Shown: piece after piece, positions 45,457 to 61,766 of the stretch
How positions within the stretch are numbered: the first letter of the stretch is position 1
Layout of the letters: every line of letters begins with the position of its first letter
Assembly: GCA_938010435.1 (NCBI GenBank)
Contig: CALLUS010000008.1
Location: forward strand, 124,001-188,000
From: an uncultured Rhizobiaceae group bacterium
GTDB lineage: Bacteria; Pseudomonadota; Alphaproteobacteria; Rhizobiales; Rhizobiaceae
Direction of reading: 5' to 3'
Length of the DNA: 64,000 bases
Notes under the pieces: generated by a model
What the model saw: the letters and a program-made list of their open reading frames with translations, nothing else
The model's database searches: none
What the model was told of the DNA's origin: nothing
Position numbers and translations under genes: made by a program

Positions 45457-46644
45457 CTACTGATCGACGCGCACACGAATTGAGAACAAATCGAGTGGTT
45501 TTCCGCCAAGCGCAAGATCGGTGTTAAACGCCATATACGCTGACTTATTTTTGCCAATCATTTTATCATTGACCAAAACGTCGAAAATATAGGCTTCCAC
45601 TTGCTTGCGTGCGCTGAAACGTTTTCGGCCACAACTGCCCATGGAATCGAACTCGCAGAAAATCGCGAACTGCTGCATCTCATCGTTCGATGAGCGTAAC
45701 ATTACTTCAAACGTCGCGGCTTTCCCTTTGAGGGTTTCCAAAACACCACGCGGAATTTTTACCAAAACCGTATTGCCGCTGTTACCGGCATTTGAAGAAA
45801 TACGTGCAAATGTTCGACCATTGGCCTGAATCAATTCAGCCGCACTGCGGTTGGCAAGGTCCAAGTTTTCCGGATTGACATCAGGTTCAAAAACATTGAC
45901 CCAACCTTCCCCGCCCTCAGGTACAAAAGCACCTGATTCAATGGCGGGATTTGGGTTTGGAACAGAACCGTCCAAACGCGACTTGATAAGGTCCGGGCCA
46001 AATGTCCAAGCCCACCATGCTGCAACCCCAATACCGACCCAGATAATCGTCCATAAAAGCAGTTTTGCATAAGATCGTTTTTTACGCCTTTGCAACAACA
46101 TGGGATTGAACGGTTCTGGTTCCAATTCAATTGAAGCATCGTTTTGATGCGCTGCCGGAATTGGAATGTCTGGAACATCCAATTGAGGCTCCGCCCTTTG
46201 AGGATGAATTGGGTTAGGTTGCGGAGCCGGACTGGTAGGAATTCGTGCTGACGTTGGTCTATTGGGTGCGACGCCAGACAGGTCGCCAGTATTTTGTGGT
46301 GCAGCTTCCACCTCAGGCGCATTGGACTGCATCTTTGGAGTCGGTGCTGCAGGTGCAGGTGCAGGTGCAGGTGCAGGTGCAGGTGCAGGTGCAGGTGCAG
46401 GTGCAGGAATATCTGCTTGCTTATACGAAGATTCAATATCTGAAATGGCTTTTTGCAGACGTTGCCTCTGTGCCGTTGCCGAATTTTGATCCATTGCAGG
46501 ATTTTTCGACAACATTCGTTCCAACGCCTGACGCGAGGAATTGTATATAGCTTCGCGCCCTTCAGAAGACAGATTTCCCTGTTTCTCAATTGCGCCGCGG
46601 ATTAGGTCTTCAAATCCTGCCAATTCACTCTCCCGAGTTCCCAC
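45457..46644 (-). CDS. Membrane protein of unknown function with an Ala-Pro repeat
   Basis: A 395-residue protein I do not recognise. Residues 1-75 are helical and charged, about residues 78-100 are an Ala-Pro repeat encoded by a hexanucleotide repeat, then a Pro/Asn-rich linker. One membrane helix (LLLWTIIWVGIGVAAWWAWTFG, about residue 195) leads to a C-terminal domain of about 180 residues with two close cysteines (FCEFDSMGSCGRKRF), likely periplasmic and beta-rich. This suggests a cytosol-to-periplasm spanning envelope protein. It converges on ppk2. Confidence 0.75.
   Translation of the reverse strand: MGTRESELAGFEDLIRGAIEKQGNLSSEGREAIYNSSRQALERMLSKNPAMDQNSATAQRQRLQKAISDIESSYKQADIPAPAPAPAPAPAPAPAPAPAAPTPKMQSNAPEVEAAPQNTGDLSGVAPNRPTSARIPTSPAPQPNPIHPQRAEPQLDVPDIPIPAAHQNDASIELEPEPFNPMLLQRRKKRSYAKLLLWTIIWVGIGVAAWWAWTFGPDLIKSRLDGSVPNPNPAIESGAFVPEGGEGWVNVFEPDVNPENLDLANRSAAELIQANGRTFARISSNAGNSGNTVLVKIPRGVLETLKGKAATFEVMLRSSNDEMQQFAIFCEFDSMGSCGRKRFSARKQVEAYIFDVLVNDKMIGKNKSAYMAFNTDLALGGKPLDLFSIRVRVDQ
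46349..46408. repeat. Hexanucleotide tandem repeat, (GCAGGT)9 plus a variant copy
   Basis: Nine perfect GCAGGT units are followed by GCAGGA. On the coding (minus) strand they read as alternating Ala and Pro codons. The unit contains no stop in any frame, which explains the long spurious open frames that cross it. Copy changes keep the reading frame. Confidence 0.95.
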
Positions 46645-47826: not shown

Positions 47827-47871
47827 TTTAAAAATTTTACCAATTGATAAATTTTTAAAACGCGATATTCT
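47827..47871 (+). promoter_or_regulatory. preT promoter with RutR-like operator inside a long inverted repeat
   Basis: The perfect 11-base arms TTTAAAAATTT (47827-47837) and AAATTTTTAAA (47849-47859) surround the core. The 16 bases TTTACCAATTGATAAA at 47836-47851 match the E. coli RutR consensus TTGACCA-NN-TGGTCAA at 11 of 14 defined positions. A -35-like TTGATA (47844) lies in the box, with TATTCT (47866) after 16 bases. Repressor binding here would block RNA polymerase at preT. Confidence 0.6.
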
Positions 47872-47921
47872 GATCTCAAGACATCAACACATTTCAATGT
47901 TGATTAACTTGGGAGAGACGA

Positions 47922-49286
47922 ATGGCAGCTTCAGCGTTTGAGAAGAGAATGCGGGATGGCGTGGCTGCAGGCCGCCTTAAATCAGACGAGCTGAAAAATA
48001 ATTTCAATGATGTTCACCCACCACTGGATGGACACGAAGCATTGGTGGCGTCTGATCGCTGCTATTTTTGTTATGACGCGCCATGTGTCACTGCCTGTCC
48101 TACAGCGATCGATATTCCCCAGTTTATCCGCGAAATTTCGACCGGCAATACAGTCGGTGCTGCTGAAACAATTTTAGAACAGAATATTTTGGGCGGCATG
48201 TGTGCCCGTGTTTGCCCGACTGAAACGCTTTGCGAACAAGCTTGTGTGCGTGAACTCGCTGAAGGCAAGCCCGTGCAAATCGGATTGCTTCAACGTTTCG
48301 CCACTGATGAAGTGATGACACAAAACAAGCAGTTTTTTGAGCGAAAACCTACCACGGGAAAATCCATTGCAGTTGTTGGCGCAGGCCCTACCGGTCTTGC
48401 TTGCGCTCACCGTCTTTCCATGCACGGCCATAACGTGACCATTTATGAAGCACGTAAAAAGCCTGGCGGATTGAATGAATTCGGGATTGCTGCTTACAAA
48501 ACCGTCGACAACTTTGCCCAAAAGGAAGTTGACTACGTGACCGCAATTGGTGGCATCAACATCAAATACAACGAACCAATTGGACCAAATCTTAATTTGG
48601 ATAAACTGCGCAAAGACCATGATGCCGTATTCCTCGGTATGGGTCTGTCAGGTGTGAACGCGCTTGGGTTAAAAGGAAAAGAACCTGAAGGCGTGATGGA
48701 TGCAGTCGATTTCATTGCACAACTCCGCCAAACGAAAAACAAAGGCAAAATCGCAATTGGCCGCCGTATCGTTGTGATTGGCGGCGGTATGACGGCCGTT
48801 GATTGCGCTGTTCAAGCCAAACTACTGGGGGCTGAAGAAGTCACCATTTGCTACCGGCGTGGGCAAAGTCAGATGAATGCCTCGCGCTACGAACAAGAAC
48901 TTGCAGCAACCCATGGTGTTATCATCCGCGACTGGCTGCAACCGCAAAAATTAAAGACAAAATCTGGTGCCGTGTCAGGCATCACATTGGAATACACGCA
49001 TACGGAAAAGAAAAAACTCGTTGGTACGGGCGAAACAATCACTCTGGAAGCGGATCAAGTTTTCCGTGCCATTGGACAAACACTTGGCGATGAAAATTCA
49101 GATGTTTTGGAAAATGAGTTGAAATTGGACCACGGGCGGATTGCAACACGTGAAGACGGCGCAACAAGCCTTGATGATGTTTGGGCTGGCGGCGACTGTA
49201 CAAACATGGGCGATGACCTAACCGTCACCGCTGTCGCTCAAGGCCGCGATGCGGCCGAATCCATCACCAAATATTTGAACGCGTAA
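47922..49286 (+). CDS. preT: NAD-dependent dihydropyrimidine dehydrogenase subunit PreT
   Basis: A 454-residue flavin and iron-sulfur protein that passes electrons between NAD(P)H and PreA, so that uracil and thymine are reduced to dihydro forms. The two N-terminal cysteine clusters are at residues 47-59 (CYFCYDAPCVTAC) and 94-108 (CARVCPTETLCEQAC). FAD binding is at VVGAGPTGLACA, residues 151-162, and a second dinucleotide site at VVIGGGMTAVDCA. GGAGAG gives a good ribosome site. preA follows after 12 bases. Confidence 0.94.
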   Translation: MAASAFEKRMRDGVAAGRLKSDELKNNFNDVHPPLDGHEALVASDRCYFCYDAPCVTACPTAIDIPQFIREISTGNTVGAAETILEQNILGGMCARVCPTETLCEQACVRELAEGKPVQIGLLQRFATDEVMTQNKQFFERKPTTGKSIAVVGAGPTGLACAHRLSMHGHNVTIYEARKKPGGLNEFGIAAYKTVDNFAQKEVDYVTAIGGINIKYNEPIGPNLNLDKLRKDHDAVFLGMGLSGVNALGLKGKEPEGVMDAVDFIAQLRQTKNKGKIAIGRRIVVIGGGMTAVDCAVQAKLLGAEEVTICYRRGQSQMNASRYEQELAATHGVIIRDWLQPQKLKTKSGAVSGITLEYTHTEKKKLVGTGETITLEADQVFRAIGQTLGDENSDVLENELKLDHGRIATREDGATSLDDVWAGGDCTNMGDDLTVTAVAQGRDAAESITKYLNA

Positions 49287-49298
49287 GGGAGAAACACA

Positions 49299-50609
49299 AT
49301 GGCTGATATTTCAAACAATTTCGTTGGCATTAAATCTCCGAATCCGTTCTGGCTGGCTTCGGCGCCACCGACCGACAAAGCCTATAATGTTGAACGTGCT
49401 TTCAAAGCAGGTTGGGGTGGTGTTGTTTGGAAAACCCTTGGCGAAGAAGGCCCACCCATCGTTAATGTGAATGGCCCGCGCTATGGCGCAATTTGGGGCG
49501 CAGATCGTCGCTTACTCGGCCTCAATAATATCGAGTTGATCACTGATCGGGACTTGCATTTAAACCTGCGTGAAATCAAAGAAGTGAAAGCGAAATGGCC
49601 CGATCGTGCCATGATCGTCTCACTGATGGTGCCGTGCGAAGAACAAGCTTGGAAAAGCATCTTGCCACTGGTTGAAGAAACAGGCGCAGACGGAATTGAG
49701 CTTAATTTCGGTTGTCCCCACGGGATGAGCGAACGGGGTATGGGTGCTGCCGTTGGGCAAGTGCCTGAATATATCGAAATGGTGACCCGCTGGTGCAAAC
49801 AAACCACACGAATGCCCGTGATTGTGAAACTAACACCCAATATTTCAGATATCCGCTACCCTGCCCGCGCGGCAAAAGCTGGTGGTGCTGACGCTGTGTC
49901 TTTGATCAACACCGTTTCTTCCATCGTGTCAGTGAATTTGGATGATTTCTCTCCCGAACCTTCCATCGATGGTAAAGGAAGCCATGGGGGGTATTGTGGA
50001 CCAGCCGTAAAACCAATTGCGTTGAACATGGTGGCTGAAATTGGTCGAGACGAGGAAACCGTCGGTCTGCCGATTTCTGGTATTGGCGGCATCACCACTT
50101 GGCGCGATGCGGCAGAATTTCTTGCACTTGGCGCAGGCAATGTTCAGGTGTGCACCGCAGCTATGACCTACGGTTTCAAAATTGTCGAAGAAATGATTTC
50201 CGGCCTGGAAGCTTGGATGGATTCTAAAGGCCACCGCACATTGGATGACGTGATTGGACGGGCAACGCCCAACGTCACTGATTGGCAATACCTCAACCTG
50301 AACTACGTGACCAAAGCGAAGATCAATCAAGATACTTGCATCAAGTGTGGCCGTTGCCATATCGCCTGTGAAGACACGTCTCACCAAGCTATCACCAACA
50401 TGCTGAACGGCGAACGGCACTTTGAAGTGATTGATGAAGAATGTGTCGGCTGCAATTTGTGTGTGAATGTTTGCCCTGTTGAAAGCTGCATCACAATGGA
50501 ACAAGTGCCGGCAGGACAAATGGATGCACGCACCGGCAAAAAGGTCGTCAAAAAATATAGCAACTGGACCGAACACCCCAACAACCCGTCTATTGTTGCG
50601 GCAGAGTAA
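49299..50609 (+). CDS. preA: NAD-dependent dihydropyrimidine dehydrogenase catalytic subunit PreA
   Basis: A 436-residue protein. The dihydroorotate-dehydrogenase-like barrel binds FMN and the pyrimidine (NPFWLASAPPTDKAYNVERAF, IELNFGCPHGMSERGMGAAVGQ with the active-site Cys region, KLTPNISDI, GIGGITTWRDAAEF). From about residue 347 a two-cluster ferredoxin domain follows: CIKCGRCHIACEDTSH and CVGCNLCVNVCPVESC. With PreT it catalyses the first, reductive step of uracil and thymine breakdown. Confidence 0.95.
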   Translation: MADISNNFVGIKSPNPFWLASAPPTDKAYNVERAFKAGWGGVVWKTLGEEGPPIVNVNGPRYGAIWGADRRLLGLNNIELITDRDLHLNLREIKEVKAKWPDRAMIVSLMVPCEEQAWKSILPLVEETGADGIELNFGCPHGMSERGMGAAVGQVPEYIEMVTRWCKQTTRMPVIVKLTPNISDIRYPARAAKAGGADAVSLINTVSSIVSVNLDDFSPEPSIDGKGSHGGYCGPAVKPIALNMVAEIGRDEETVGLPISGIGGITTWRDAAEFLALGAGNVQVCTAAMTYGFKIVEEMISGLEAWMDSKGHRTLDDVIGRATPNVTDWQYLNLNYVTKAKINQDTCIKCGRCHIACEDTSHQAITNMLNGERHFEVIDEECVGCNLCVNVCPVESCITMEQVPAGQMDARTGKKVVKKYSNWTEHPNNPSIVAAE

Positions 50610-50648
50610 TTGTACAACGTGATCAACGGAGGTTGATGCGGCAACCAG

Positions 50649-50670
50649 ATAATCTAACGCCCCAGATTAT
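50649..50670 (+). terminator. Weak hairpin after preA
   Basis: ATAATCT and AGATTAT are perfect seven-base arms with an eight-base loop, followed by TTTGATC. The short T run makes this only a weak terminator candidate for preTA. Confidence 0.4.
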
Positions 50671-50705
50671 TTGATCTAAACATCACATAAACCTTCTTGA
50701 TGGTC

Positions 50706-50743
50706 GGAACTTCCCGAACAATCCCTCAAGTTTGGGGAGTTCC
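50706..50743. terminator. Intergenic stem-loop between convergent preA and the TetR gene
   Basis: GGAACTTCCC pairs with GGGGAGTTCC with one G-U pair in ten. No T tract follows on either strand. It ends 11 bases before the regulator stop codon and may protect both transcripts from each other. Confidence 0.45.
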
Positions 50744-50753
50744 GGTTTGCAAA

Positions 50754-51407
50754 CTAAGGCGCAAGACCTTCGACAAACAATTGATCAAGAAAACGGGCGG
50801 CGTCTTCAAAGCGGCCTTCGCCCTGCCCCATACCGCCTAGCACCACCTGAACCTGCACATCGAAGTCCGCATAATGTTGCGTTGTTGCCCAGATAGCGAA
50901 GAACATGTGATGGGGGTCGCATTTTTTCAGTTGCCCGGCATCTGACCAATTACGGATAATTTTCGCTTTTTCATCTACCAGAATTTTTAGGTCCGATAGT
51001 TCGTCCCCGATGCGCGGCGCGCCTTGCAAAATCTCATTGGCGAACAATCGACTTTCGCGCGGGTAATCCCGTGCCAATTCCAGTTTACGTCGAATATAGG
51101 ATTTGATTTCAGAAACCGGTTCGCCATTTTCATTCAATTCACGCAGCGGCCGCAGCCAATTGTCCAGCAAACGATCAAGTAACTGCCTATGAATCGTTTC
51201 TTTGTTTTTAAAGTAATACAGCAAATTTGGCTTAGACAGGCCTGCTTGATCAGCGATCTGATCTAATGTTGCCCCACGAAAACCGTGACTGGCAAAAACA
51301 TCAAGTGCCGCTTCCAAAATGAGTTCTTCTTTTTCCAACTGAATGCGCGTGCGTTTGCGCGTTTCTGATGCTCGTGATTGCCGAACTTCGGGCTTTGATT
51401 GCGGCAA
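50754..51407 (-). CDS. TetR-family regulator of the RutR type (TTG start)
   Basis: A 217-residue repressor. The helix-turn-helix is LILEAALDVFASHGFRGATLDQIADQAGLSKPNLLYYFKNKETI, and the ligand domain contains RDYPRESRLFANEILQGAPRI and MFFAIWATTQHYADFDVQV, which match the RutR C-terminal domain; E. coli RutR binds uracil. No ATG is available; TTG 51407 has AGGGAG ten bases upstream. It is divergent from the catabolic operon, with a RutR-like box between them, so it probably represses that operon and preTA until pyrimidine appears. Confidence 0.85.
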   Translation of the reverse strand: MPQSKPEVRQSRASETRKRTRIQLEKEELILEAALDVFASHGFRGATLDQIADQAGLSKPNLLYYFKNKETIHRQLLDRLLDNWLRPLRELNENGEPVSEIKSYIRRKLELARDYPRESRLFANEILQGAPRIGDELSDLKILVDEKAKIIRNWSDAGQLKKCDPHHMFFAIWATTQHYADFDVQVQVVLGGMGQGEGRFEDAARFLDQLFVEGLAP

Positions 51408-51484
51408 AAGAAAATCACTCCCTGTCTGTGGGGCAGAAACCTATCCCCAATGTCATTTTACACCTTGAGGCGCGCGTGGAAACC

Positions 51485-51508
51485 TGTAATCTTTGACCGG
51501 CTGGTAAA
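51485..51508 (+). promoter_or_regulatory. RutR-like operator before the carbamoylase operon
   Basis: TTGACCGGCTGGTAAA at 51493-51508 matches 12 of the 14 defined positions of the E. coli RutR consensus TTGACCA-NN-TGGTCAA. A -10-like TGTAAT (51485-51490) stands directly before it, so a bound repressor would cover the transcription start. The -35 region is not clear. Confidence 0.65.
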
Positions 51509-51529
51509 TTTTTTATGGGAGTGAAATCA

Positions 51530-52786
51530 ATGGCCGCAGCAGGTGAAAACCTTCGCATCAATGGCGAGAGGCTTTGGGACTCCATTCATAAAATTGCCGA
51601 AATCGGACCGGGCATTGCGGGCGGCTCCAACCGCCAAACAGTGACTGATGAAGATGCTGAGGGGCGCAAACTTTTTCAGACATGGTGTGAGGAGGCCGGT
51701 TTGTCCATGGGAGTGGATCAAATGGGTACGATGTTCATGCGCCGTGAGGGAACCGACACGGGCGCACTCCCCGTCTATGTTGGTTCCCACTTAGACACCC
51801 AGCCCACAGGTGGCCGCTATGACGGCGTGCTTGGAGTGCTGGCAGGATTGGAAATTATCCGCACGCTCAACGATATGGACATCCAAACCAAACACCCGAT
51901 TGTGGTGACCAACTGGACCAATGAAGAAGGCACACGCTTTGCACCGGCTATGATGGCGTCAGGTGTGTTTGCCAAAGAATTCACCCAAGAATGGGCTTAT
52001 GACAAAGTGGATGTCGACGGCAAAACCTTTGGCGAAGAACTAGAACGTATCGGTTGGAAAGGCGACGAGGTGGTTGGCGACCGCAAGATGCACGCTTTTT
52101 TGGAGCTGCATATTGAACAAGGACCAATTCTTGAAGCCGAGGGCAAAGACATTGGTGTTGTGACCCATGGACAAGGGCTACGTTGGATAGAATGCACCGT
52201 GACGGGCAAAGAAAGCCACACGGGATCTACCCCCATGCCCATGCGCAAAAATGCGGGGCGCGGCTTGGCGCAAATCACCGAACTGGTTCACACAATCGCC
52301 ATGGACAACGCTCCCAACGCCGTGGGCGCCATTGGCTATATTGATGTCTACCCAAACAGCCGAAACATCATCCCGGGTAAGGTTGTTTTCACCATCGATT
52401 TCCGATCTCACGAACTGGACACGCTGAACGGCATGGTGGAGCGATTGATGAGCGAAGCCCCAAAACTCTGTGCTGATCTGGAAGTCGGATTTGAAGCAGA
52501 AATCGTCGGCCAATTTGACCCACCAGCATTTGACAAAAAACTGGTGCAAAGCATTCGCGAAGCGTCTGAACGTTTGGGTTATTCCCACATGGACATTATA
52601 TCCGGCGCAGGCCACGACGCCTGCTGGATCAACCGCGTCGCCCCCACCGCCATGGTGATGTGCCCGTGTGTGGATGGATTGTCCCACAACGAAGCCGAAG
52701 ATATTTCCAAAGAATGGAGCACAGCGGGGGCTGAGGTGTTGTTCCATGCGGTAGTAGAAGCTGCGGAGATTGTAGGGGGAGAATAA
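51530..52786 (+). CDS. M20-family N-carbamoyl amidohydrolase (beta-ureidopropionase-type)
   Basis: A 418-residue zinc amidohydrolase of the hydantoinase/carbamoylase group. Metal-ligand segments are YVGSHLDTQPTGGRYDGVLGVLAGLE, NWTNEEGTRFAP, LELHIEQGPILEAEG and ISGAGHDACWI. In this context it should hydrolyse N-carbamoyl-beta-alanine or N-carbamoyl-beta-aminoisobutyrate to the beta-amino acid, CO2 and ammonia, the third step of reductive pyrimidine breakdown. ATG 51530 has GGGAG upstream and is preferred over 51515. It starts an eight-gene operon. Confidence 0.9.
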   Translation: MAAAGENLRINGERLWDSIHKIAEIGPGIAGGSNRQTVTDEDAEGRKLFQTWCEEAGLSMGVDQMGTMFMRREGTDTGALPVYVGSHLDTQPTGGRYDGVLGVLAGLEIIRTLNDMDIQTKHPIVVTNWTNEEGTRFAPAMMASGVFAKEFTQEWAYDKVDVDGKTFGEELERIGWKGDEVVGDRKMHAFLELHIEQGPILEAEGKDIGVVTHGQGLRWIECTVTGKESHTGSTPMPMRKNAGRGLAQITELVHTIAMDNAPNAVGAIGYIDVYPNSRNIIPGKVVFTIDFRSHELDTLNGMVERLMSEAPKLCADLEVGFEAEIVGQFDPPAFDKKLVQSIREASERLGYSHMDIISGAGHDACWINRVAPTAMVMCPCVDGLSHNEAEDISKEWSTAGAEVLFHAVVEAAEIVGGE

Positions 52787-52790
52787 TCTA

Positions 52791-53423
52791 ATGGAATTAG
52801 TAACACTTATCAGTTTCGCGTCTTTAGCAACCCTATTGGTTATTTCACCGGGACCAAACGGCGTACTCATAGCAAAAACTGTACCAACATCAGGCAGAGC
52901 TGCCGGCTTTGCCAATGTAATAGCATTTGTTCCTGCATTTTTTTTGCATGGTGCATTTTCCATCTTTGGTATTTCTATAATTCTTCTTCAATCTCCGTGG
53001 GCGTTTTGGTCAGTAAAATTTGTTGGTGCGGCATATCTATGCTGGATCGGAATCAAAGCTCTTTATTCTGCCATCAAAGGCGATGTTTCCATTTCACAAA
53101 TTGAGCCTGCAAATCGGGCACGCAATTTGAGGCACGCGTTCAGCGAAGGTTTTCTGACCAACTTTTTAAACCCTAAAGTATCCATGTTTTATCTCGCCGC
53201 GTTCCCGCAGTTTATTCAATCTGGCGAGAATACCATTCTCTACGGCTTCTTATTAGTTGCCTTACATTCTGCGATAAACCTGATTTGGTTTTCATGCATT
53301 GTGCTGCTTTTGGGTCGCATGACGGCTTTTGCTAGATCTGGTCCAATACAACGCTGGATCAAAGGTTTTACTGGCTTTGTATTCATCGGATTCGGAGTCA
53401 AACTCGCAACACTGCGTACTTGA
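52791..53423 (+). CDS. LysE/RhtB-family amino acid exporter
   Basis: A 210-residue membrane protein with about six helices. LVISPGPNGVLIAKTVPTSGRAAGFANVIAF is the family signature (PGPN), followed by AYLCWIGIKALYSA and EGFLTNFLNPKVSMFYLAAFPQF. LysE-type proteins expel amino acids. Four bases separate it from the carbamoylase gene and it precedes hydA, so it may export beta-alanine or beta-aminoisobutyrate made by the pathway; that is inference. Confidence 0.85.
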   Translation: MELVTLISFASLATLLVISPGPNGVLIAKTVPTSGRAAGFANVIAFVPAFFLHGAFSIFGISIILLQSPWAFWSVKFVGAAYLCWIGIKALYSAIKGDVSISQIEPANRARNLRHAFSEGFLTNFLNPKVSMFYLAAFPQFIQSGENTILYGFLLVALHSAINLIWFSCIVLLLGRMTAFARSGPIQRWIKGFTGFVFIGFGVKLATLRT

Positions 53424-53434
53424 GGAGTTACCCC

Positions 53435-54889
53435 ATGACCACAACAATCAAAAACGGCACCATTGTTACTGCCGATCTGACATATAAATCCGATGTTCAA
53501 ATCGAAGAAGGTGTAATCACGGCGATTGGGCCGAACCTTTCTGGTGGCACGGAATTGGATGCCACCGATTGTTACATTATGCCCGGTGGGATCGACCCGC
53601 ACACGCATCTTGAGATGCCTTTCATGGGTACCTATTCGACAGATGATTTTGAATCTGGCACCCGTGCCGCACTTTCTGGTGGCACAACGATGGTGGTGGA
53701 TTTTGCCCTGCCCGCACCCGGTCAATCGCTGCTGGAAGCCATTCAAATGTGGGACAACAAGTCGACCCGCGCCAATTGCGATTATTCTTTCCACATGGCG
53801 ATCACATGGTGGGGCGAGCAGGTTTTCGACGAGATGGAAACCGTGGTCAAAGACAAAGGCATCAACACGTTCAAACACTTCCTCGCCTACAAGGGCGCTT
53901 TGATGGTGAATGATGATGAACTTTATTCATCCTTCCAACGCTGTGCCGCCTTGGGTGCAACACCTATGGTGCACGCGGAAAACGGCGACGTGGTTGCCGA
54001 ACTTTCCGCCAAGCTGTTGGCTGAAGGAAACACAGGGCCAGAAGCCCATGCCTATTCTCGCCCGCCACAAGTTGAGGGCGAAGCAACCAACCGCGCGATT
54101 ATGATTGCGGATATGGCGGGCGCACCGCTTTACGTAGTCCACACATCTTGCGAAGATTCCCACGAAGCAATTCGTCGCGCTCGTTCTCAAGGCAAACGTG
54201 TTTGGGGTGAACCGCTCATTCAACACCTCACATTGGACGAGAGCGAATATTTCAACAAAGATTGGGACCACGCAGCACGACGCGTGATGTCTCCGCCCTT
54301 CCGCAACAAGCAACATCAGGATTCATTGTGGGCAGGTCTTTCCAGCGGCTCGCTTTCCGTTGTCGCAACCGACCACTGCGCATTTACAACTGAACAAAAA
54401 CGCACAGGCGTTGGCGACTTCACAAAAATTCCAAACGGTACAGGTGGCCTTGAAGACCGTATGCCAATGCTTTGGACTTATGGCGTTGCAACAGGCCGCA
54501 TCACCATGAATGAATTCGTGGCAGTGACCTCCACCAACATCGCCAAAATCCTGAATTGCTATCCGAAGAAAGGCGCAATTCTTGTTGGCTCTGATGCAGA
54601 CATTGTGGTTTGGGACCCGAAAAAAGAAAAGACGATCGAAGCGACCAACCAGCAAAGCGCTATCGACTACAATGTGTTCGAGGGCAAACATGTCAAAGGG
54701 CTCCCACGCTACACGCTTTCACGCGGTCATGTTTCCGTAGTTGATGGAGAAGTGAAAACCCAAGAAGGTCACGGAAAGTTTGTGAAACGCGAACCAAATG
54801 CAGCTGTGAACTCCGCGCTTTCCACATGGAAAGAACTCATAAACCCAACGCCTGTAAAACGCACAGGTATTCCGGCGAGTGGGGTTTGA
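53435..54889 (+). CDS. hydA: Dihydropyrimidinase
   Basis: A 484-residue cyclic amidohydrolase that opens dihydrouracil and dihydrothymine to N-carbamoyl-beta-amino acids. The binuclear zinc site is seen as GGIDPHTHLEMPFMG, the carbamylated lysine at about 152 in KHFLAYKGALMVND, VHAENGDVV, VVHTSCEDSHEA and the catalytic Asp in VATDHCAFTTEQK. GAGGAG precedes ATG 53435. The pathway step falls between PreTA and the carbamoylase. Confidence 0.94.
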   Translation: MTTTIKNGTIVTADLTYKSDVQIEEGVITAIGPNLSGGTELDATDCYIMPGGIDPHTHLEMPFMGTYSTDDFESGTRAALSGGTTMVVDFALPAPGQSLLEAIQMWDNKSTRANCDYSFHMAITWWGEQVFDEMETVVKDKGINTFKHFLAYKGALMVNDDELYSSFQRCAALGATPMVHAENGDVVAELSAKLLAEGNTGPEAHAYSRPPQVEGEATNRAIMIADMAGAPLYVVHTSCEDSHEAIRRARSQGKRVWGEPLIQHLTLDESEYFNKDWDHAARRVMSPPFRNKQHQDSLWAGLSSGSLSVVATDHCAFTTEQKRTGVGDFTKIPNGTGGLEDRMPMLWTYGVATGRITMNEFVAVTSTNIAKILNCYPKKGAILVGSDADIVVWDPKKEKTIEATNQQSAIDYNVFEGKHVKGLPRYTLSRGHVSVVDGEVKTQEGHGKFVKREPNAAVNSALSTWKELINPTPVKRTGIPASGV

Positions 54890-55790
54890 GTTGACTGTCT
54901 TTGAAGGTCTCTCCGCATTTCCCGTAACGCCGTCGAACTCCGATGGTATGGTTGACTGCGATCATTTTGGTCGACTGGTGAATCATCTCAATCGCGATGG
55001 GGTTTCATCCATCGGCGTGTTGGGGTCGACAGGTGGTTATATGTATTTGACCACAGAAGAACGCAGCCGTGCCATTCACACTGCGGTAGATGCTGCTGGT
55101 ACAATGCCAGTGCTTGCTGGAATAGGTGCTTTGCGTACCAATGACGTTATCACCAATGTTAAAAATGCTGAAAAAGCTGGAGCGCAAGGTCTGTTACTAG
55201 CGCCCGTTTCATATCTTCCACTCACAGAGGCCGATGTGGATTCGCTGGTGCAAGATGTTGTCAACGCGACCGATCTTCCTATTTGCTTTTACAACAACCC
55301 GGGCACGACCAAATTCAATCTCGACGAAAACCAACTGGTGCGACTGGCGAATGCTGGCACAATCGATGCAGTGAAGAACCCACCCGCGCCGGAAGGTGAT
55401 TTCGTTGGTCAGATTGACCGACTTCGTGCGACGGTGCCAAACGATTTTTGTCTCGGGTATTCCGGTGATGCGTCAATTGCTGGCGCGTTGGAAGCGGGAG
55501 CAGACGCTTGGTATTCCGTTCTTGCGGGCACATTGCCAGATATTGCCATTGAACTTTGGAACGCTCGAAACGACGTCAATCAACTCAAAGCGATCAATGA
55601 ACGCCTCGCGCCCATGTGGAAACTTTTCGACGAATACGGAAGCATTCGCATTATTCACGAGATCGCCGATATGGTTGGTCTGGGAAACGTCAAACTTCCG
55701 TCGCCACTCCTCCCGCTCGGCACCGCTACGCGCCAAAACATCGAACAAGCTTTGAACTCTATCGAGGCCATAGAAGATCAATTTGTATGA
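54879..55790 (+). CDS. DapA-superfamily lyase/aldolase of unknown substrate
   Basis: A 303-residue (beta/alpha)8 protein of the DHDPS/NAL superfamily. The Schiff-base lysine is in IDAVKNPPAPEG and the catalytic Tyr in CFYNNPGTTKFNL. Two features argue against true DapA: the motif usually GTTGE reads GSTGG, and the Arg that follows the Tyr in DapA (YNVPxRT) is Thr here. Thus it probably joins or splits a 2-oxo acid such as pyruvate with another partner. GTG 54879 overlaps hydA; TTG 54891 is the alternative start. It is followed by ABC importer genes with a four-base overlap. Confidence 0.85.
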   Translation: MGFELTVFEGLSAFPVTPSNSDGMVDCDHFGRLVNHLNRDGVSSIGVLGSTGGYMYLTTEERSRAIHTAVDAAGTMPVLAGIGALRTNDVITNVKNAEKAGAQGLLLAPVSYLPLTEADVDSLVQDVVNATDLPICFYNNPGTTKFNLDENQLVRLANAGTIDAVKNPPAPEGDFVGQIDRLRATVPNDFCLGYSGDASIAGALEAGADAWYSVLAGTLPDIAIELWNARNDVNQLKAINERLAPMWKLFDEYGSIRIIHEIADMVGLGNVKLPSPLLPLGTATRQNIEQALNSIEAIEDQFV

Positions 55791-56563
55791 CAGTCGTATC
55801 CGCATCCAACCTCTCCCTCACTTTTGAGACCAACGATGGGCCCGTCCATGCGTTGAAGGACGTTAGTCTTGATGTACAGAAGGGGGATTTTGTTTCTTTC
55901 ATCGGACCGTCAGGTTGCGGGAAGACGACCTTTTTGCGCGTGATTGCTGATTTGGAAAAGCCAACGGGCGGCAGCATTTCCGTTAATGGGATGACGCCTG
56001 AACAAGCCAGACAAGCCCGTGCTTATGGCTATGTGTTTCAGGCAGCATCCCTTTTGCCTTGGCGCACAATTGAGAAAAATATCGGCGTGCCGTTGGAAAT
56101 CATGGGGCTTTCAAAAGCCGATCAACGCAAACGCATTGATGATGTTTTGTCCCTCGTCGATCTTGCGAACTTTGGTAAGAAATATCCGTGGCAATTGTCA
56201 GGCGGCATGCAGCAACGCGCTTCCATTGCCCGCGCCCTCGCTTTTGATGCTGATCTATTACTCATGGATGAGCCTTTTGGTGCGTTAGACGAAATCGTGC
56301 GCGACCACTTGAACGAACAATTGCTGAAACTTTGGGACGCGACAAACAAGACAATTTGTTTTGTTACCCATTCCATTCCAGAGGCGGTATATTTATCGAC
56401 AAAGATCGTTGTTATGTCCCCTCGCCCAGGACAGATTTACGATGTGATCGACAGCACGTTGCCAAGGGAGCGCCCTCTCGACATTCGCGAAAGCCAGGAG
56501 TTCCTAGACATCGCCGCCCGTGTGCGCGACGGGTTAAAAGCAGGGCATTCTTACGATGAGTAA
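55787..56563 (+). CDS. ABC importer ATPase (NMT1/THI5-type system)
   Basis: A 258-residue ATPase of the nitrate/sulfonate/pyrimidine importer group. Walker A is FIGPSGCGKTTFLRVIADLEKPTGG, Q-loop GYVFQAASLLPWRTIEKN, signature QLSGGMQQRASIARALAF, Walker B LLLMDEPFGALDEI and H-loop FVTHSIPEAVYLS. It overlaps the DapA-like gene by four bases (ATGA) and the next permease by eight. Its partner binding protein suggests a pyrimidine-like substrate. Confidence 0.92.
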   Translation: MTVVSASNLSLTFETNDGPVHALKDVSLDVQKGDFVSFIGPSGCGKTTFLRVIADLEKPTGGSISVNGMTPEQARQARAYGYVFQAASLLPWRTIEKNIGVPLEIMGLSKADQRKRIDDVLSLVDLANFGKKYPWQLSGGMQQRASIARALAFDADLLLMDEPFGALDEIVRDHLNEQLLKLWDATNKTICFVTHSIPEAVYLSTKIVVMSPRPGQIYDVIDSTLPRERPLDIRESQEFLDIAARVRDGLKAGHSYDE

Positions 56564-57458
56564 GCCCAGCAAAACCATTCCTGTTCTCACAATCATCGCG
56601 ATCATTATCGCGATTTGGTATATCTGTGTGGTCTGGATGAATGCGCCGTTTGTTTATGATCAGGCGGAGCGCGCCAAGGTTGAACCGCCTGCATTTTCTG
56701 AACTTGTTTCCATCACCATGTCGCAAGAGCGGCCCGTGCTTCCAGCGCCCCATCAGGTGGCGCAAGAGCTTTGGAAGACGACAGGGGCAATGGCATTAAA
56801 GGGGCGACCGTTTTCAAAACGCTCTCTTATCTATCATACATGGATTACGCTTTCAGCGACACTGCTTGGCTTCCTCATTGGTACTGCACTTGGCATCGCG
56901 CTTGCCGTGGGTATTGTGCACAACCGTGCGATGGATAAATCGGTCATGCCTTGGGTGATCACATCACAAACCATTCCCATTCTTGCCATCGCACCAATGA
57001 TCATTGTTGTGCTGAATGCAGCTGGTATTTCGGGCCTGTTGCCCAAAGCGTTGATCTCCACTTATCTTTCATTCTTCCCTGTCGTCGTTGGCATGGTGAA
57101 AGGCTTGCGGTCACCTGACGCAGCACAACTTGATCTCATGCACACGTACAATGCCTCAACCGCGCAAACGTTCTGGAAACTACGTTGGCCTTCTTCCATG
57201 CCGTATTTGTTCACCTCACTAAAAATCGCCGTGGCGATTTCACTTGTTGGCGCCATTGTGGGTGAAATGCCAACGGGCGCTGTGGCAGGGCTTGGGGCAC
57301 GGTTGCTTGCTGGCTCTTACTACGGGCAGACCATCCAAATTTGGTCGGCACTCTTTATGGCCGCAACGCTTGCTGCGGTCCTTGTGATGTTGGTGGGTTG
57401 GGCACATTCTTATGTGCTGCGGCGGATGGGAGAGAAGCCAGAAGGAGTCGCCGCATGA
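56556..57458 (+). CDS. ABC importer permease 1
   Basis: A 300-residue permease with six or seven helices. An N-terminal helix (IPVLTIIAIIIAIWYICVVWM) precedes a periplasmic stretch, then the BPD-type permease core with WITLSATLLGFLIGTALGIALAVGIVHN and the ATPase-contact loop RSPDAAQLDLMHTYNASTAQTFWKLRWPSSMPYLFTSLK. It overlaps both neighbours, so the subunits are translated together. Confidence 0.9.
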   Translation: MSKPSKTIPVLTIIAIIIAIWYICVVWMNAPFVYDQAERAKVEPPAFSELVSITMSQERPVLPAPHQVAQELWKTTGAMALKGRPFSKRSLIYHTWITLSATLLGFLIGTALGIALAVGIVHNRAMDKSVMPWVITSQTIPILAIAPMIIVVLNAAGISGLLPKALISTYLSFFPVVVGMVKGLRSPDAAQLDLMHTYNASTAQTFWKLRWPSSMPYLFTSLKIAVAISLVGAIVGEMPTGAVAGLGARLLAGSYYGQTIQIWSALFMAATLAAVLVMLVGWAHSYVLRRMGEKPEGVAA

Positions 57459-58321
57459 CCCTCGTGATAGCAGCCCTCTTATTCTGGCTCGCCATGTGGT
57501 GGGCGAACCAACGTCTTGTTGCGGTTAAAACAGGTTTGAACCTTAGTCTTGCCCGCACCATCAATCTTATCGTGCCCATTATTTTCGGTGTTACCTTGTT
57601 TGTAATGTGGGAGCTTATTGTGCGCGGGTTGGAAGTGCCATTTGTTTTGTTGCCACCACCATCCATGATTGGCGCGCGTATAGCTTCGTCTCTTCCAACA
57701 TTATGGGCCGACTTTCAGCAAACGTTTTTGAAGTCAGTTATTTCAGGTTACATTTTGGGATGTGGTTCTGGATTTGTTGTTGCTTTGCTCATTGATCGGT
57801 CCCCATTTTTGCAACGCGGATTGTTGCCTATTGGAAACTTCGTATCTGCCCTGCCCATCGTTGGCGTCGCGCCTATTATGGTGATGTGGTTCGGGTTTGA
57901 CTGGCAATCGAAAGCCGCAGTGGTTGTCATCATGACCTTCTTCCCCATGTTGGTGAATACGGTGCAAGGTCTCGCCGCTGCCAGCCACATGGAGCGAGAT
58001 TTGATGAACACCTATGCCGCATCTTGGTGGCAAACACTCACCAAATTGCGCCTGCCAGCGGCAGCGCCTTTTATTTTCAATGCATTGAAAATCAATTCCA
58101 CCCTTGCGCTCATTGGTGCAATCGTGGCTGAATTCTTTGGAACACCCATTGTCGGTATGGGCTTTCGCATTTCTACTGAAGTGGGACGGATGAATGTCGA
58201 CATGGTGTGGGCCGAGATCACGGTGGCGGCACTTGCCGGTTCCGCTTTTTACGGAACGGTCGCACTGATCGAACGTGCCGTTACATTCTGGCATCCATCA
58301 ATCCGGGCAAGTCGCAATTGA
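57455..58321 (+). CDS. ABC importer permease 2
   Basis: A 288-residue second permease that should pair with the preceding one. ATG 57455 overlaps the previous stop by four bases; the upstream frame to 57341 lies inside permease 1. TFLKSVISGYILGCGSGFVVALLID, SALPIVGVAPIMVMWFGFDWQSKAAVVVIMTFFPMLVNTVQGL and the ATPase-contact segment RDLMNTYAASWWQTLTKLRLPAAAPFIFNALKI show the BPD family. A heterodimeric permease fits NMT1/THI5-type importers. Confidence 0.9.
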   Translation: MTLVIAALLFWLAMWWANQRLVAVKTGLNLSLARTINLIVPIIFGVTLFVMWELIVRGLEVPFVLLPPPSMIGARIASSLPTLWADFQQTFLKSVISGYILGCGSGFVVALLIDRSPFLQRGLLPIGNFVSALPIVGVAPIMVMWFGFDWQSKAAVVVIMTFFPMLVNTVQGLAAASHMERDLMNTYAASWWQTLTKLRLPAAAPFIFNALKINSTLALIGAIVAEFFGTPIVGMGFRISTEVGRMNVDMVWAEITVAALAGSAFYGTVALIERAVTFWHPSIRASRN

Positions 58322-58348
58322 CGCCTGATATAACAGGGAGACTACAAC

Positions 58349-59338
58349 ATGAAAAAACTTACCCTTCTCTTAGCAGCATCAGCGCTGTCCATGTCGGCCA
58401 TGGCTGCACAAGCTGCGGACAAAGTGACATTGCAACTTAAGTGGGTCACGCAAGCACAATTTGCAGGTTACTACGTGGCAAAAGACAAAGGCTTCTACAA
58501 AGAGGAAGACTTGGACGTTGAAATCAAACCCGGCGGTCCGGACATTGCACCAGCACAAGTTTTGGCTGGTGGCGGTGCGGATGTTGTTCTTGATTGGATG
58601 CCATCTGCTTTGGCCACACGTGAAAAAGGTGTGCCATTGGTCAATATCGCACAACCGTTCAAATCATCAGGTATGATGCTGACATGCCGCAAAGATTCCG
58701 GCATCAAAACTTCTGCTGATTTTGCAGACAAAACTCTAGGCGTTTGGTTCTTTGGTAACGAATATCCATTCTTGTCTTGGATGAGCAAACTAGGCATTAA
58801 AACCGATGGTTCCGCTGGTGGCGTGAAGGTTTTAAAACAGGGCTTCAATGTCGACCCTATCCTGCAAAAGCAAGCGGCATGTGTTTCAACTATGACGTAT
58901 AATGAGTACTGGCAGATCATTGATGCTGGTCTTTCCGCTGACGACCTTATCACTTTCAAATATGAAGATGAAGGTGTCGCCACTTTGGAAGATGGTATCT
59001 ACGTCATGGAAGACAAGCTGAAAGACGCCGCTTTCAAAGACAAGATGGTTCGTTTCGTTCGCGCTTCTATGAAGGGCTGGAAATACGCTGAAGCCAACAC
59101 GGATGAAGCCGCCGATATCGTGCTCGAAAACGATGCTTCCGGTGCACAAACCGAAAAGCACCAAAAGCGTATGATGGGTGAGATTGCAAAACTCACTGCC
59201 GGTTCAAACGGCGCCCTAGATAAAGCCGATTATGAGCGCACTGTAGCCACGTTGCTTGGCGCCGGTTCCGATCCCGTGATCACCAAGAAGCCTGAAGGTG
59301 CTTGGACTTCTGAAATCACGGATGCTGCCTTGAAATAG
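58349..59338 (+). CDS. NMT1/THI5-like periplasmic binding protein
   Basis: A 329-residue solute-binding protein. The signal peptide is KLTLLLAASALSMSAMAAQA, cleaved before ADKVTLQLKWVTQAQFAGYYVAKDKGFYKEEDLDVEIKPGGPDI, the classic NMT1/THI5 start shared by thiamine-pyrimidine and related binding proteins. WFFGNEYPFLSWMSKLGIK and the middle QAACVSTMTYNEYWQI help form the pocket. Ending the catabolic operon, it likely delivers uracil, thymine, dihydropyrimidines or a hydantoin. A terminator follows. Confidence 0.9.
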   Translation: MKKLTLLLAASALSMSAMAAQAADKVTLQLKWVTQAQFAGYYVAKDKGFYKEEDLDVEIKPGGPDIAPAQVLAGGGADVVLDWMPSALATREKGVPLVNIAQPFKSSGMMLTCRKDSGIKTSADFADKTLGVWFFGNEYPFLSWMSKLGIKTDGSAGGVKVLKQGFNVDPILQKQAACVSTMTYNEYWQIIDAGLSADDLITFKYEDEGVATLEDGIYVMEDKLKDAAFKDKMVRFVRASMKGWKYAEANTDEAADIVLENDASGAQTEKHQKRMMGEIAKLTAGSNGALDKADYERTVATLLGAGSDPVITKKPEGAWTSEITDAALK

Positions 59339-59492: not shown

Positions 59493-61766
59493 ATGAGCAA
59501 TATCAAAGACACCCTCACGCCAGCATTGCGGTATCATCAGTTTCCTAAGCCCGGAAAACTTGAAATACGACCCACCAAACCATTGGCCAATCCACGTGAC
59601 TTGTCTTTAGCCTATTCGCCAGGGGTGGCGGAAGCCAGTATGTCCATTCATGCTGATCCAAATATGGCTTCCAATTATACCGCACGGGGAAATCTTGTTG
59701 CCGTGGTGACAAACGGTTCTGCTGCCCTTGGCCTCGGAAATATTGGCGCGCTTGCCTCAAAGCCGATCATGGAAGGTAAGGCCGTTCTATTCAAACAATT
59801 CGCGCATATCGATTGCTTTGACATTGAATTGAACGAAAGCGACCCGGTTAAACTTGCTGAGCACGTCATCGCACTTGAACCTACTTTCGGAGCGATTAAT
59901 CTGGAAGATATCAAAGCGCCCGATTGTTTCATTGTGGAAAAAATCTGCCGTGAGCGGATGAACATTCCAGTCTTTCACGACGATCAACATGGCACTGCAA
60001 TTGTTGTAGGCGCTGCGGCAAAAAATGCACTTCACCTGACCAAACGCGATTTCAAAGATATCAAAATCGTTTCTACCGGTGGTGGTGCGGCGGGGATTGC
60101 TTGTCTCAACATGCTTTTGAAACTTGGTGTTCAACGCGAGAATATCTGGTTGTGCGATATTGCCGGCCTTATTTATGAAGGTCGCACGGAAGACATGACG
60201 GATGAAAAAGCCGCCTTTGCGCAAAAGAGCGATCTGCGCACTTTGGATGATGTTATTGATAGTGCAGATTTGTTTCTTGGACTTTCTGGCCCGGGTGTGT
60301 TGACGCAAGATATGGTCAAACGCATGGCCAACGACCCGATCATCTTTGCGTTGGCCAATCCAGAACCAGAAATCATGCCGGAAGAAGTGTATGAAGTCGC
60401 CCCCAACGCCATTATGGCAACAGGCCGTTCCGATTATCCAAATCAGGTGAACAATGTTCTTTGTTTCCCTTTCATTTTCCGTGGTGCGCTTGATGTGGGT
60501 GCAACAGAAATTAATGACGAAATGCAGATCGCATGTGTTGAAGGCATTGCCGCATTGGCCCGCAAAACGTCTTCTGCGGAAACAGCCGAAGTCTATGGAG
60601 ACGAAGACCTACAATTCGGACCGGAATACCTTATTCCCAAACCGTTTGATGCGAGACTATTGGCGGTTGTGGCCGGTGCCGTTGCAAAAGCAGGCATGGA
60701 AACCAAAGTTGCTCAGCGTCCGTTGAAAGATTTCGATGCCTATATCGAAGGTTTGAATGCTACAGTCTATCGCTCTTCAATGATCATGCGTCCTGTCTTC
60801 GAGGTGGCCAAATCCCAATCCCGTCGTATCGTTTTTGCTGAAGGTGAAGATGAACGGGTGTTGCGGGCCGCAATGGCTATGTTGGAAGAAACAAACGACC
60901 AGCCGGTTCTCATCGGCCGACCTGAAGTCATTTTCCATCGTTGTAAAAAGTTTGGCATTTCCGAAGATCTGTCCAGCAAGTTTGATATTGTGAACCCTGA
61001 AAGTGACCATCGTTATCGCGAGTATTGGGAAACTTACCATAATGTGATGGCCCGGCAGGGTATCTCACCCACTTTGGCGCAAGCCGTTTTGCGCACGAAC
61101 ACAACTGTAATTGCTGCCGTGATGGTGCATCGTGGGGAAGCCGATAGTATGATTTGCGGTACGTTTGGCAATTACCTGTGGCACCTGAATTATGTGCAAC
61201 AAATGCTTGAGACACCCGAACTTGAGGCAACAGGTGCGCTATCACTCCTGATATTGGATTCAGGACCACTTTTCGTCGCAGATACTCATGTGAACCCCGA
61301 ACCCACAGCTGAAGAAATTGCACAAAGCGTGATCGGAACTGCACGTCACGTTCGTCGTTTTGGTATAGAACCCCAGGTCGCACTTTGTTCTAATTCACAG
61401 TTCGGCACGTTGAATACAGAATCTGCACGACGCATGAGAGAAGCCCTTGCAATTCTCGACCGTCAAAAACTAGATTTTATTTATGAAGGTGAAATGCCGG
61501 TTGATGCTGCACTTGATCCTGAAATTCGTGAACGTATGATGCCTAACAGCCGGATCAACGGACAAGCCAATGCATTTGTATTTTCGAACGCGGAAACAGC
61601 GGGCGGTGTCAAAAACTCATTAAAATCCGTCGCAGGCGGTATCGAAGTTGGGCCAATCTTGATGGGTATGGGCAATCGCAGCCACATCGTCACGCCTTCA
61701 ATCACCACACGCGGGTTGATCAATATGGCCGCTTTGGCAGGTACGCCCGTTCACACCTATGCTTGA
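59493..61766 (+). CDS. maeB: NADP-dependent malic enzyme with phosphotransacetylase-like domain
   Basis: A 757-residue two-domain protein. The malic enzyme half has LSLAYSPGVAEASMSIHADP, CFDIELNESDPVKLAEHV, VFHDDQHGTAIVVGAAAKNAL and the cofactor motif IVSTGGGAAGIACLNMLLKLG. The C-terminal half from about residue 430 (RRIVFAEGEDERVLRAAMAMLEE, LRTNTTVIAAVMVHRGEADSM) resembles phosphotransacetylase and regulates the enzyme, probably by acetyl-CoA, in related proteins. It converts malate to pyruvate with NADPH. Its 3' end overlaps the convergent metal permease gene by ten bases. Confidence 0.95.
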   Translation: MSNIKDTLTPALRYHQFPKPGKLEIRPTKPLANPRDLSLAYSPGVAEASMSIHADPNMASNYTARGNLVAVVTNGSAALGLGNIGALASKPIMEGKAVLFKQFAHIDCFDIELNESDPVKLAEHVIALEPTFGAINLEDIKAPDCFIVEKICRERMNIPVFHDDQHGTAIVVGAAAKNALHLTKRDFKDIKIVSTGGGAAGIACLNMLLKLGVQRENIWLCDIAGLIYEGRTEDMTDEKAAFAQKSDLRTLDDVIDSADLFLGLSGPGVLTQDMVKRMANDPIIFALANPEPEIMPEEVYEVAPNAIMATGRSDYPNQVNNVLCFPFIFRGALDVGATEINDEMQIACVEGIAALARKTSSAETAEVYGDEDLQFGPEYLIPKPFDARLLAVVAGAVAKAGMETKVAQRPLKDFDAYIEGLNATVYRSSMIMRPVFEVAKSQSRRIVFAEGEDERVLRAAMAMLEETNDQPVLIGRPEVIFHRCKKFGISEDLSSKFDIVNPESDHRYREYWETYHNVMARQGISPTLAQAVLRTNTTVIAAVMVHRGEADSMICGTFGNYLWHLNYVQQMLETPELEATGALSLLILDSGPLFVADTHVNPEPTAEEIAQSVIGTARHVRRFGIEPQVALCSNSQFGTLNTESARRMREALAILDRQKLDFIYEGEMPVDAALDPEIRERMMPNSRINGQANAFVFSNAETAGGVKNSLKSVAGGIEVGPILMGMGNRSHIVTPSITTRGLINMAALAGTPVHTYA

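Follow-up and report, generated by a model that had tools for sequence, protein, structure and literature searches.

Escherichia coli RutR controls the RutA oxygenase pathway, and the question raised by the locus described here is whether a regulator of the same type governs the reductive pathway of pyrimidine breakdown instead. The window is a 64,000-nt stretch of contig CALLUS010000008.1 (positions 124,001–188,000; assembly GCA_938010435.1) from an uncultured bacterium with a genome of 3.57 Mb, a member of the Rhizobiaceae sensu lato. The reductive pathway is split over two co-directional units, i.e. preT-preA (47922–50609) and hyuC-rht-hydA-dapA-ABC transporter (51530–59338). A gene for a RutR-like TetR-family regulator of 217 amino acids (aa) lies between them on the minus strand (50754–51407), as had been stated in an initial reading of the letters without database searches (the sequence-only reading). 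No RutA was found in the host genome at E ≤ 1e-40, so no rutA-G operon was seen as a target. The sequence-only reading proposed that two RutR-type operators tie both units into one pyrimidine regulon. Conservation of the sites, together with absence of the preT box from three same-genus genomes without RutR, makes it very probable that one uracil-sensing RutR-type repressor controls both operons via two 16-bp operators; what did not hold was the novelty, as RutR-like control of a reductive pathway had been described before.

Both predicted operators were found on the plus strand, i.e. the preT box (TTTACCAATTGATAAA, 47836–47851) and the rutR/hyuC box (TTGACCGGCTGGTAAA, 51493–51508). Compared with the E. 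coli RutR consensus, which we take to be TTGACCANNTGGTCAA, these sites match 11 and 12 of the 14 defined bases (3 and 2 mismatches, respectively), in agreement with the earlier count. The 11-base inverted repeat reported around the preT site was also recovered, with arms at 47827–47837 and 47849–47859 that are 100% complementary and sit within a 20-nt palindrome of 85%; the A/T-rich flanks of this extended repeat (47827–47859) recur in relatives. At ≤3 mismatches, the E. coli consensus was matched ten times in the window, as compared to a mean of 4.0 and a largest value of 9 in 100 shuffles, yet most of the ten are other places. In the whole 3.57-Mb genome a refined pattern, TTKACCNNNNGRTMAA, matched 5 times forward and 3 times in reverse, at 6 places that include these two sites, while the reversed pattern used as control gave 4 and 2. 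The loose consensus matched 347 times on the forward strand genome-wide versus 259 for the control. A wider regulon in this genome was dropped as a candidate because these single-genome counts were barely above control. A single genome proves little; it is conservation across genomes that shows the sites not to be due to chance.

Conservation was assessed initially among near relatives (26 regions). With the window added to 17 relatives, 18 preT upstream regions were available. Of these, 17 had an exact TTKAYCNNNNGRTMAA, the exception being locus L072, whose RutR relative is merely 33–34% identical, and an exact box preceded hyuC in 14/23 regions. At least 11 of the 14 bases of the assumed E. 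coli consensus were matched upstream of preT in 12/18 and of hyuC in 16/23 regions, as against 1/19 for preA, 0/21 for hydA, 0/22 for abcA, 0/13 for sbp and 1.1–1.6% of shuffled regions. Relaxing the level to at least 10 of 14 gave 17/18 and 18/23 for preT and hyuC, and 4/19, 4/21, 4/22 and 2/13 for preA, hydA, abcA and sbp, so that the latter regions somewhat exceeded a shuffled background of 7–10%. The sequence-only reading had held that its regulon would fall if the boxes were not conserved in relatives; the scan that it suggested found the opposite.

Larger sets gave the same picture. The named loci (the best 80 of 572 confirmed) span Rhizobium, Ensifer, Neorhizobium, Shinella, Mesorhizobium, Devosia and others; they were picked by their RutR gene and are uninformative on genomes lacking RutR. 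With preT regions without a readable start skipped, an exact box was found at preT in 51/51 of these loci. Upstream of hyuC the box was exact in 50/78 and within one mismatch in 55/78 (control 2), while the exact count was 0/74 for both hydA and abcA, with one hydA region reached at ≤1 mismatch (control 2). Over the 1.54 Mb of these 80 loci, exact TTKAYCNNNNGRTMAA occurred 104 times, i.e. 51 times at preT, 45 at hyuC and 8 upstream of rutR, with none elsewhere and none for the control. The order-wide set held 106 preT places, of which 103 upstream regions were scored, the window included; genomes G030 and G034 were scored among the near relatives (both with the box) and G248 was cut by a contig end. 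Exact boxes were present in 59 of the 103, with 97 at ≤1 and 102 at ≤2 mismatches, as compared to 0, 6 and 33 for the control. Five of the six regions beyond one mismatch had two mismatches (L099, L100, L109, L162 and L179) and the sixth, L178, had four. A wider set extending beyond the order comprised 66 preT genomes, from which 38 upstream regions were scored (G065 for a second time); of the remainder, 12 had already been scored order-wide and 16 were same-class genomes that were left out. Loci L263–L280 (4 of the same family, 1 of the same order and 13 of the same class) all carried a preT box within one mismatch (18/18), and other orders of the class had it in 14/15 regions (13 within L266–L280, plus L302; L301 fails).

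The second site had been described as lying before the carbamoylase gene. It is present and conserved there; its placement needed correction, as it is better assigned to the interval between rutR and hyuC and its occurrence follows both genes. Where hyuC is directly divergent from rutR, the box was found in 66/66 regions at ≤1 mismatch (63 exact; control 1). In regions with a non-adjacent hyuC, a box remained upstream of rutR in 34/38 at ≤1 mismatch (4 exact; control 0), 20 of the 34 reading TTGACCGATTGGACAA. These counts pool the named loci with the 26 near-relative regions, and a few loci are counted twice (L181/L182 are the same contigs as L050/L053; L068 and L069 overlap). As the box usually remains with rutR when hyuC lies elsewhere, the pattern suggests autoregulation of rutR via the second operator, and the target of this site is probably rutR in addition to the divergent operon.

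The presence of the box was also linked to the presence of the regulator. A RutR relative (E ≤ 1e-30) was encoded by 104/106 genomes with preT versus 33/191 without it, a comparison over 297 genomes of the order that is uncorrected for shared ancestry. Within the genus of the host, an exact box was present in 10/10 genomes (window included) having RutR and a readable preT start. Three further genomes of this genus (G003, G005 and G012; 94–99% complete) have preT but lack a RutR orthologue, the best hit being E 2.3e-9 in G003 with none in the other two at E ≤ 1e-8. None of these three carried a preT box at ≤1 mismatch within 1400 bp upstream; their best matches had 2, 3 and 2 mismatches, and the controls 3, 3 and 3. 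A different arrangement was seen in genome G029 (locus L309, same order), in which RutR, hyuC, hydA and the ABC ATPase gene were present and preT was not detected at the threshold used. G029 also encodes four tandem RutA-family genes (G029:C34:29794-34320). No box at ≤1 mismatch to either the refined pattern or the E. coli consensus was found in 10 kb near these genes, and RutR control of RutA in G029 was dropped for this reason.

Aligned over 211 residues, the regulator and E. coli RutR are 47% identical, and the latter was the regulator's best match in the PDB. A RutR model scored 222.8 bits for the regulator and at most 44.7 bits for any other protein of the host genome. Uracil is held in E. 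coli RutR by W77, Y97, W167, Q171 and Q179′ (PMC10891134). The counterparts of W77, Y97, W167, Q171 and Q179 in the regulator are W84, Y104, W173, Q177 and Q185, and K59 and K69 match the DNA-contacting lysines K52 and K62. All five pocket residues and both lysines were invariant in 18 aligned homologues, an alignment that left out the more divergent relatives (L066, L068, L069, L072 and L073).

The positions of the two boxes relative to putative promoters were then compared. The sequence-only reading had the preT site overlap a −35-like hexamer; this hexamer was confirmed (TTGATA, 47844–47849, plus strand) and the description can be sharpened, as the operator contains the predicted −35 element within its right half. 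A predicted −10 element (TATTCT, 47866–47871), which is also supported by the spacing pattern in relatives, follows after 16 nt. Of 40 distinct TTGATAAA-type boxes, 36 had TAnnnT after TTGATA at a spacing of 16 nt (24 boxes) or 17 nt (12 boxes), while each remaining offset from 8 to 27 had two occurrences at most. In relatives of the window the preT box is asymmetric, with TTKACC on the left and GATAAA on the right, and this asymmetry is attributed to the right half doubling as the −35 element. The geometry at hyuC is different. A predicted −35 (TTGAGG, 51465–51470) and a predicted −10 (TAATCT, 51487–51492), both on the plus strand, precede operator 2, and the −10 abuts it. A TAATnT-like −10 directly precedes the second box in relatives, and TTGAG lies 27–28 nt before the box in 45/48 distinct sequences.

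Based on the two conserved sites, their link to the presence of RutR, the promoter-like geometry and the pocket residues, the following mechanism is proposed. The TetR-family protein (50754–51407) would act as a RutR-type repressor, binding the two 16-bp operators as a dimer. Operator 1 would cover the −35 of the preTA promoter, and operator 2 would sit directly downstream of the −10 of a putative hyuC-(rht)-hydA-(dapA)-ABC transporter operon, in a region shared with the regulator's own gene. Bound repressor would block RNA polymerase at both promoters, a mode of repression that both operator positions fit, and would probably affect its own promoter. The repressor would leave once the conserved pocket is filled by uracil or thymine, a reduced pyrimidine being another possible ligand. 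Derepression would then supply a presumed uptake system and the three enzymes converting uracil to beta-alanine, ammonia and CO2.

Several observations weigh against this mechanism or narrow its reach. The regulator scored below both curated RutR cut-offs (TIGR03613, 222.5 versus 368 bits; NF011584, 210.5 versus 230 bits) and is therefore called RutR-like, and the excess of box matches in the single genome was slight. Outside the class, the preT box was found in only 5/18 regions, all five of family f86, with 0/13 in other families; four genomes of one genus in family f87 had no preT box within one mismatch. The claim for the preT box is restricted to the class and one other family. A box before hyuC was absent even at one mismatch in 23/78 named loci, in all of which hyuC is not adjacent to rutR. 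Nine of the 23 near-relative hyuC regions had no exact box; hyuC is distant in seven of these, L070 has a box with one mismatch and L072 is the locus with the RutR relative at 33% identity. Finally, genome G137 (86% complete and fragmented) carries the box with RutR undetected, while in G135 the box is missing and the RutR relative is divergent (44%). The G137 case would be explained if the sites were real operators for another TetR-family regulator encoded elsewhere, and TetR proteins often bind similar palindromes. Such an assignment is nevertheless improbable, as the box tracks RutR within the genus (10/10 versus 0/3), the motif is similar to the consensus assumed for E. coli RutR, and rutR is preceded by a box at ≤1 mismatch in 34/38 loci with a non-adjacent hyuC.

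A slightly lower probability still is given to the preT box being merely a conserved core promoter, i.e. a −35 in an AT-rich palindrome, with a chance likeness in the second box and no RutR binding. The −35 in the right half would by itself conserve TTGATA, but the left half (TTKACC) is needed by no promoter element and was nevertheless present in 51/51 named loci. The same motif also occurs ahead of hyuC, where its place relative to the promoter is a different one, and the three same-genus preT genomes without RutR lack it. Somewhat more room, although still little, is left for a protein that binds both sites and activates, or that through site 2 controls mainly its own gene rather than hyuC. 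Persistence of site 2 upstream of rutR in the 34/38 loci with a non-adjacent hyuC favours own-gene control, whereas the placement of site 1 over the −35 and of site 2 directly after the −10 puts both in blocking positions. The one case examined also counts against this reading: rutR and hyuC of L209 are separated by a divergent omega-aminotransferase gene, which could head the same operon. Repression of both operons by the one RutR-type protein remains the preferred reading. The L209 gene itself (L209:8427-9764; Mesorhizobium sp. L-8-3) encodes an AptA-family omega-aminotransferase (765.6 bits, cut-off 500), which could catalyse the next step after beta-alanine, so that this layout possibly extends the regulon to that step.

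All three enzymes of the pathway are encoded together in the window, i.e. dihydropyrimidine dehydrogenase, dihydropyrimidinase and a carbamoyl-beta-alanine amidase-type enzyme, with all genes of both units on the plus strand. The preT gene (47922–49286) encodes the NAD(P)-binding Fe-S subunit of dihydropyrimidine dehydrogenase (454 aa); its product matches glutamate-synthase-small-subunit-like families at scores under their cut-offs, and it was named via its pairing with preA. PreA, dihydropyrimidinase and the amidase subfamily all exceeded curated cut-offs: preA (49299–50609), the catalytic subunit, scored 734.6 bits with NF006183 (cut-off 335); hydA (53435–54889), dihydropyrimidinase, scored 600.5 bits with TIGR02033 (cut-off 393.25); and hyuC (51530–52786), a predicted carbamoylase/beta-ureidopropionase-type amidase, scored 672.7 bits with NF006769 (cut-off 452) and 376.1 bits with TIGR01879 (cut-off 204). 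The start of hyuC is more likely at 51530 than at 51515 because the genes of L048 and L049 open with an identical ATGGCCGCAGCAGG. An ABC transporter was recognized from protein family matches and from the relatives' regions, with an ATPase (55784–56563) and two permeases (56556–57458 and 57440–58321), followed by a substrate-binding protein (58349–59338), with which the conserved cluster ends; 154 nt further on, at 59493, another plus-strand open reading frame (ORF) begins. Two other genes appear as insertions in the hyuC operon. A LysE/RhtB-type exporter (52791–53423) is not usually part of the cluster, occurring in 0/26 relatives' regions and in 1/80 named loci (L207). A DapA-family lyase (54879–55790) has a counterpart in few relatives, i.e. 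only in L049 and L052 among the 26 regions, some of which are cut by contig ends. Upstream of the locus, a GGTGCA tandem repeat (46340–46410) encodes an Ala-Pro run within a minus-strand ORF (45457–46644).

A further idea is that, in much of the order, coenzyme A synthesis depends mainly on the RutR-controlled pathway for its beta-alanine, with RutR gating an essential vitamin precursor. A PanD-type aspartate decarboxylase was not found (E ≤ 1e-10) in 102/106 preT genomes, a search that covered the PanD route alone, and Rhizobium etli has been shown to draw its beta-alanine from uracil breakdown, the final enzyme of which supplies it (PMC7142369). This idea is regarded as rather unlikely; if true, RutR repression would have to be either leaky or governed by the uracil level inside the cell. 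It was ruled out for the organism of the window because this genome has panD (G000:C2:429984-430316, outside the window) and no detected panC; with the genome rated 100% complete, panD without panC is an unusual combination.

RutR-like control of the reductive pathway is already known, and the regulon described here is ordinary but well-supported biology. Pseudomonas putida PydR (Hidese et al. 2012, cited in PMC7332683) is, by the title of that paper, a RutR-like repressor of the dihydropyrimidine dehydrogenase gene. The likeness to our locus is drawn from this title, which indicates the same logic of a RutR-like regulator acting on the reductive pathway, and the predicted operator at preT is consistent with PydR-type repression of dihydropyrimidine dehydrogenase genes. 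Leyn et al. (2016) and RegPrecise predicted RutR regulons in 68 genomes of 13 proteobacterial groups, with an average of 10.9 per genome and taxon-specific changes in the motif (PMC5343134). Their set very likely includes regulons of this kind, although no preTA turned up in a term search of the main text. In PMC9491525, RutR appeared in the reference list only. RutR operators at preTA in this order were absent from the titles and abstracts of the literature matches listed, which do not extend to most subscription papers or to the RegPrecise tables, and neither the promoter-embedded operator nor its lineage-wide asymmetry was met among the same matches.

Comparison with E. coli itself shows a regulator with 47% identity, the same five pocket residues and a palindrome related to the consensus assumed above. 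No box was found at E. coli preTA by the refined pattern, the best match having 2 mismatches at −339; this pattern is a poor test for E. coli, as its best match in the rutR/rutA region likewise has 2 mismatches.

Across the Alphaproteobacteria sampled, a RutR-type box before preT is common and no local oddity. The lineage-wide motif is usable for annotating pyrimidine breakdown in rhizobia and their relatives, and the regulon is testable, with one probable uracil-sensing repressor and two operators of differing promoter geometry.

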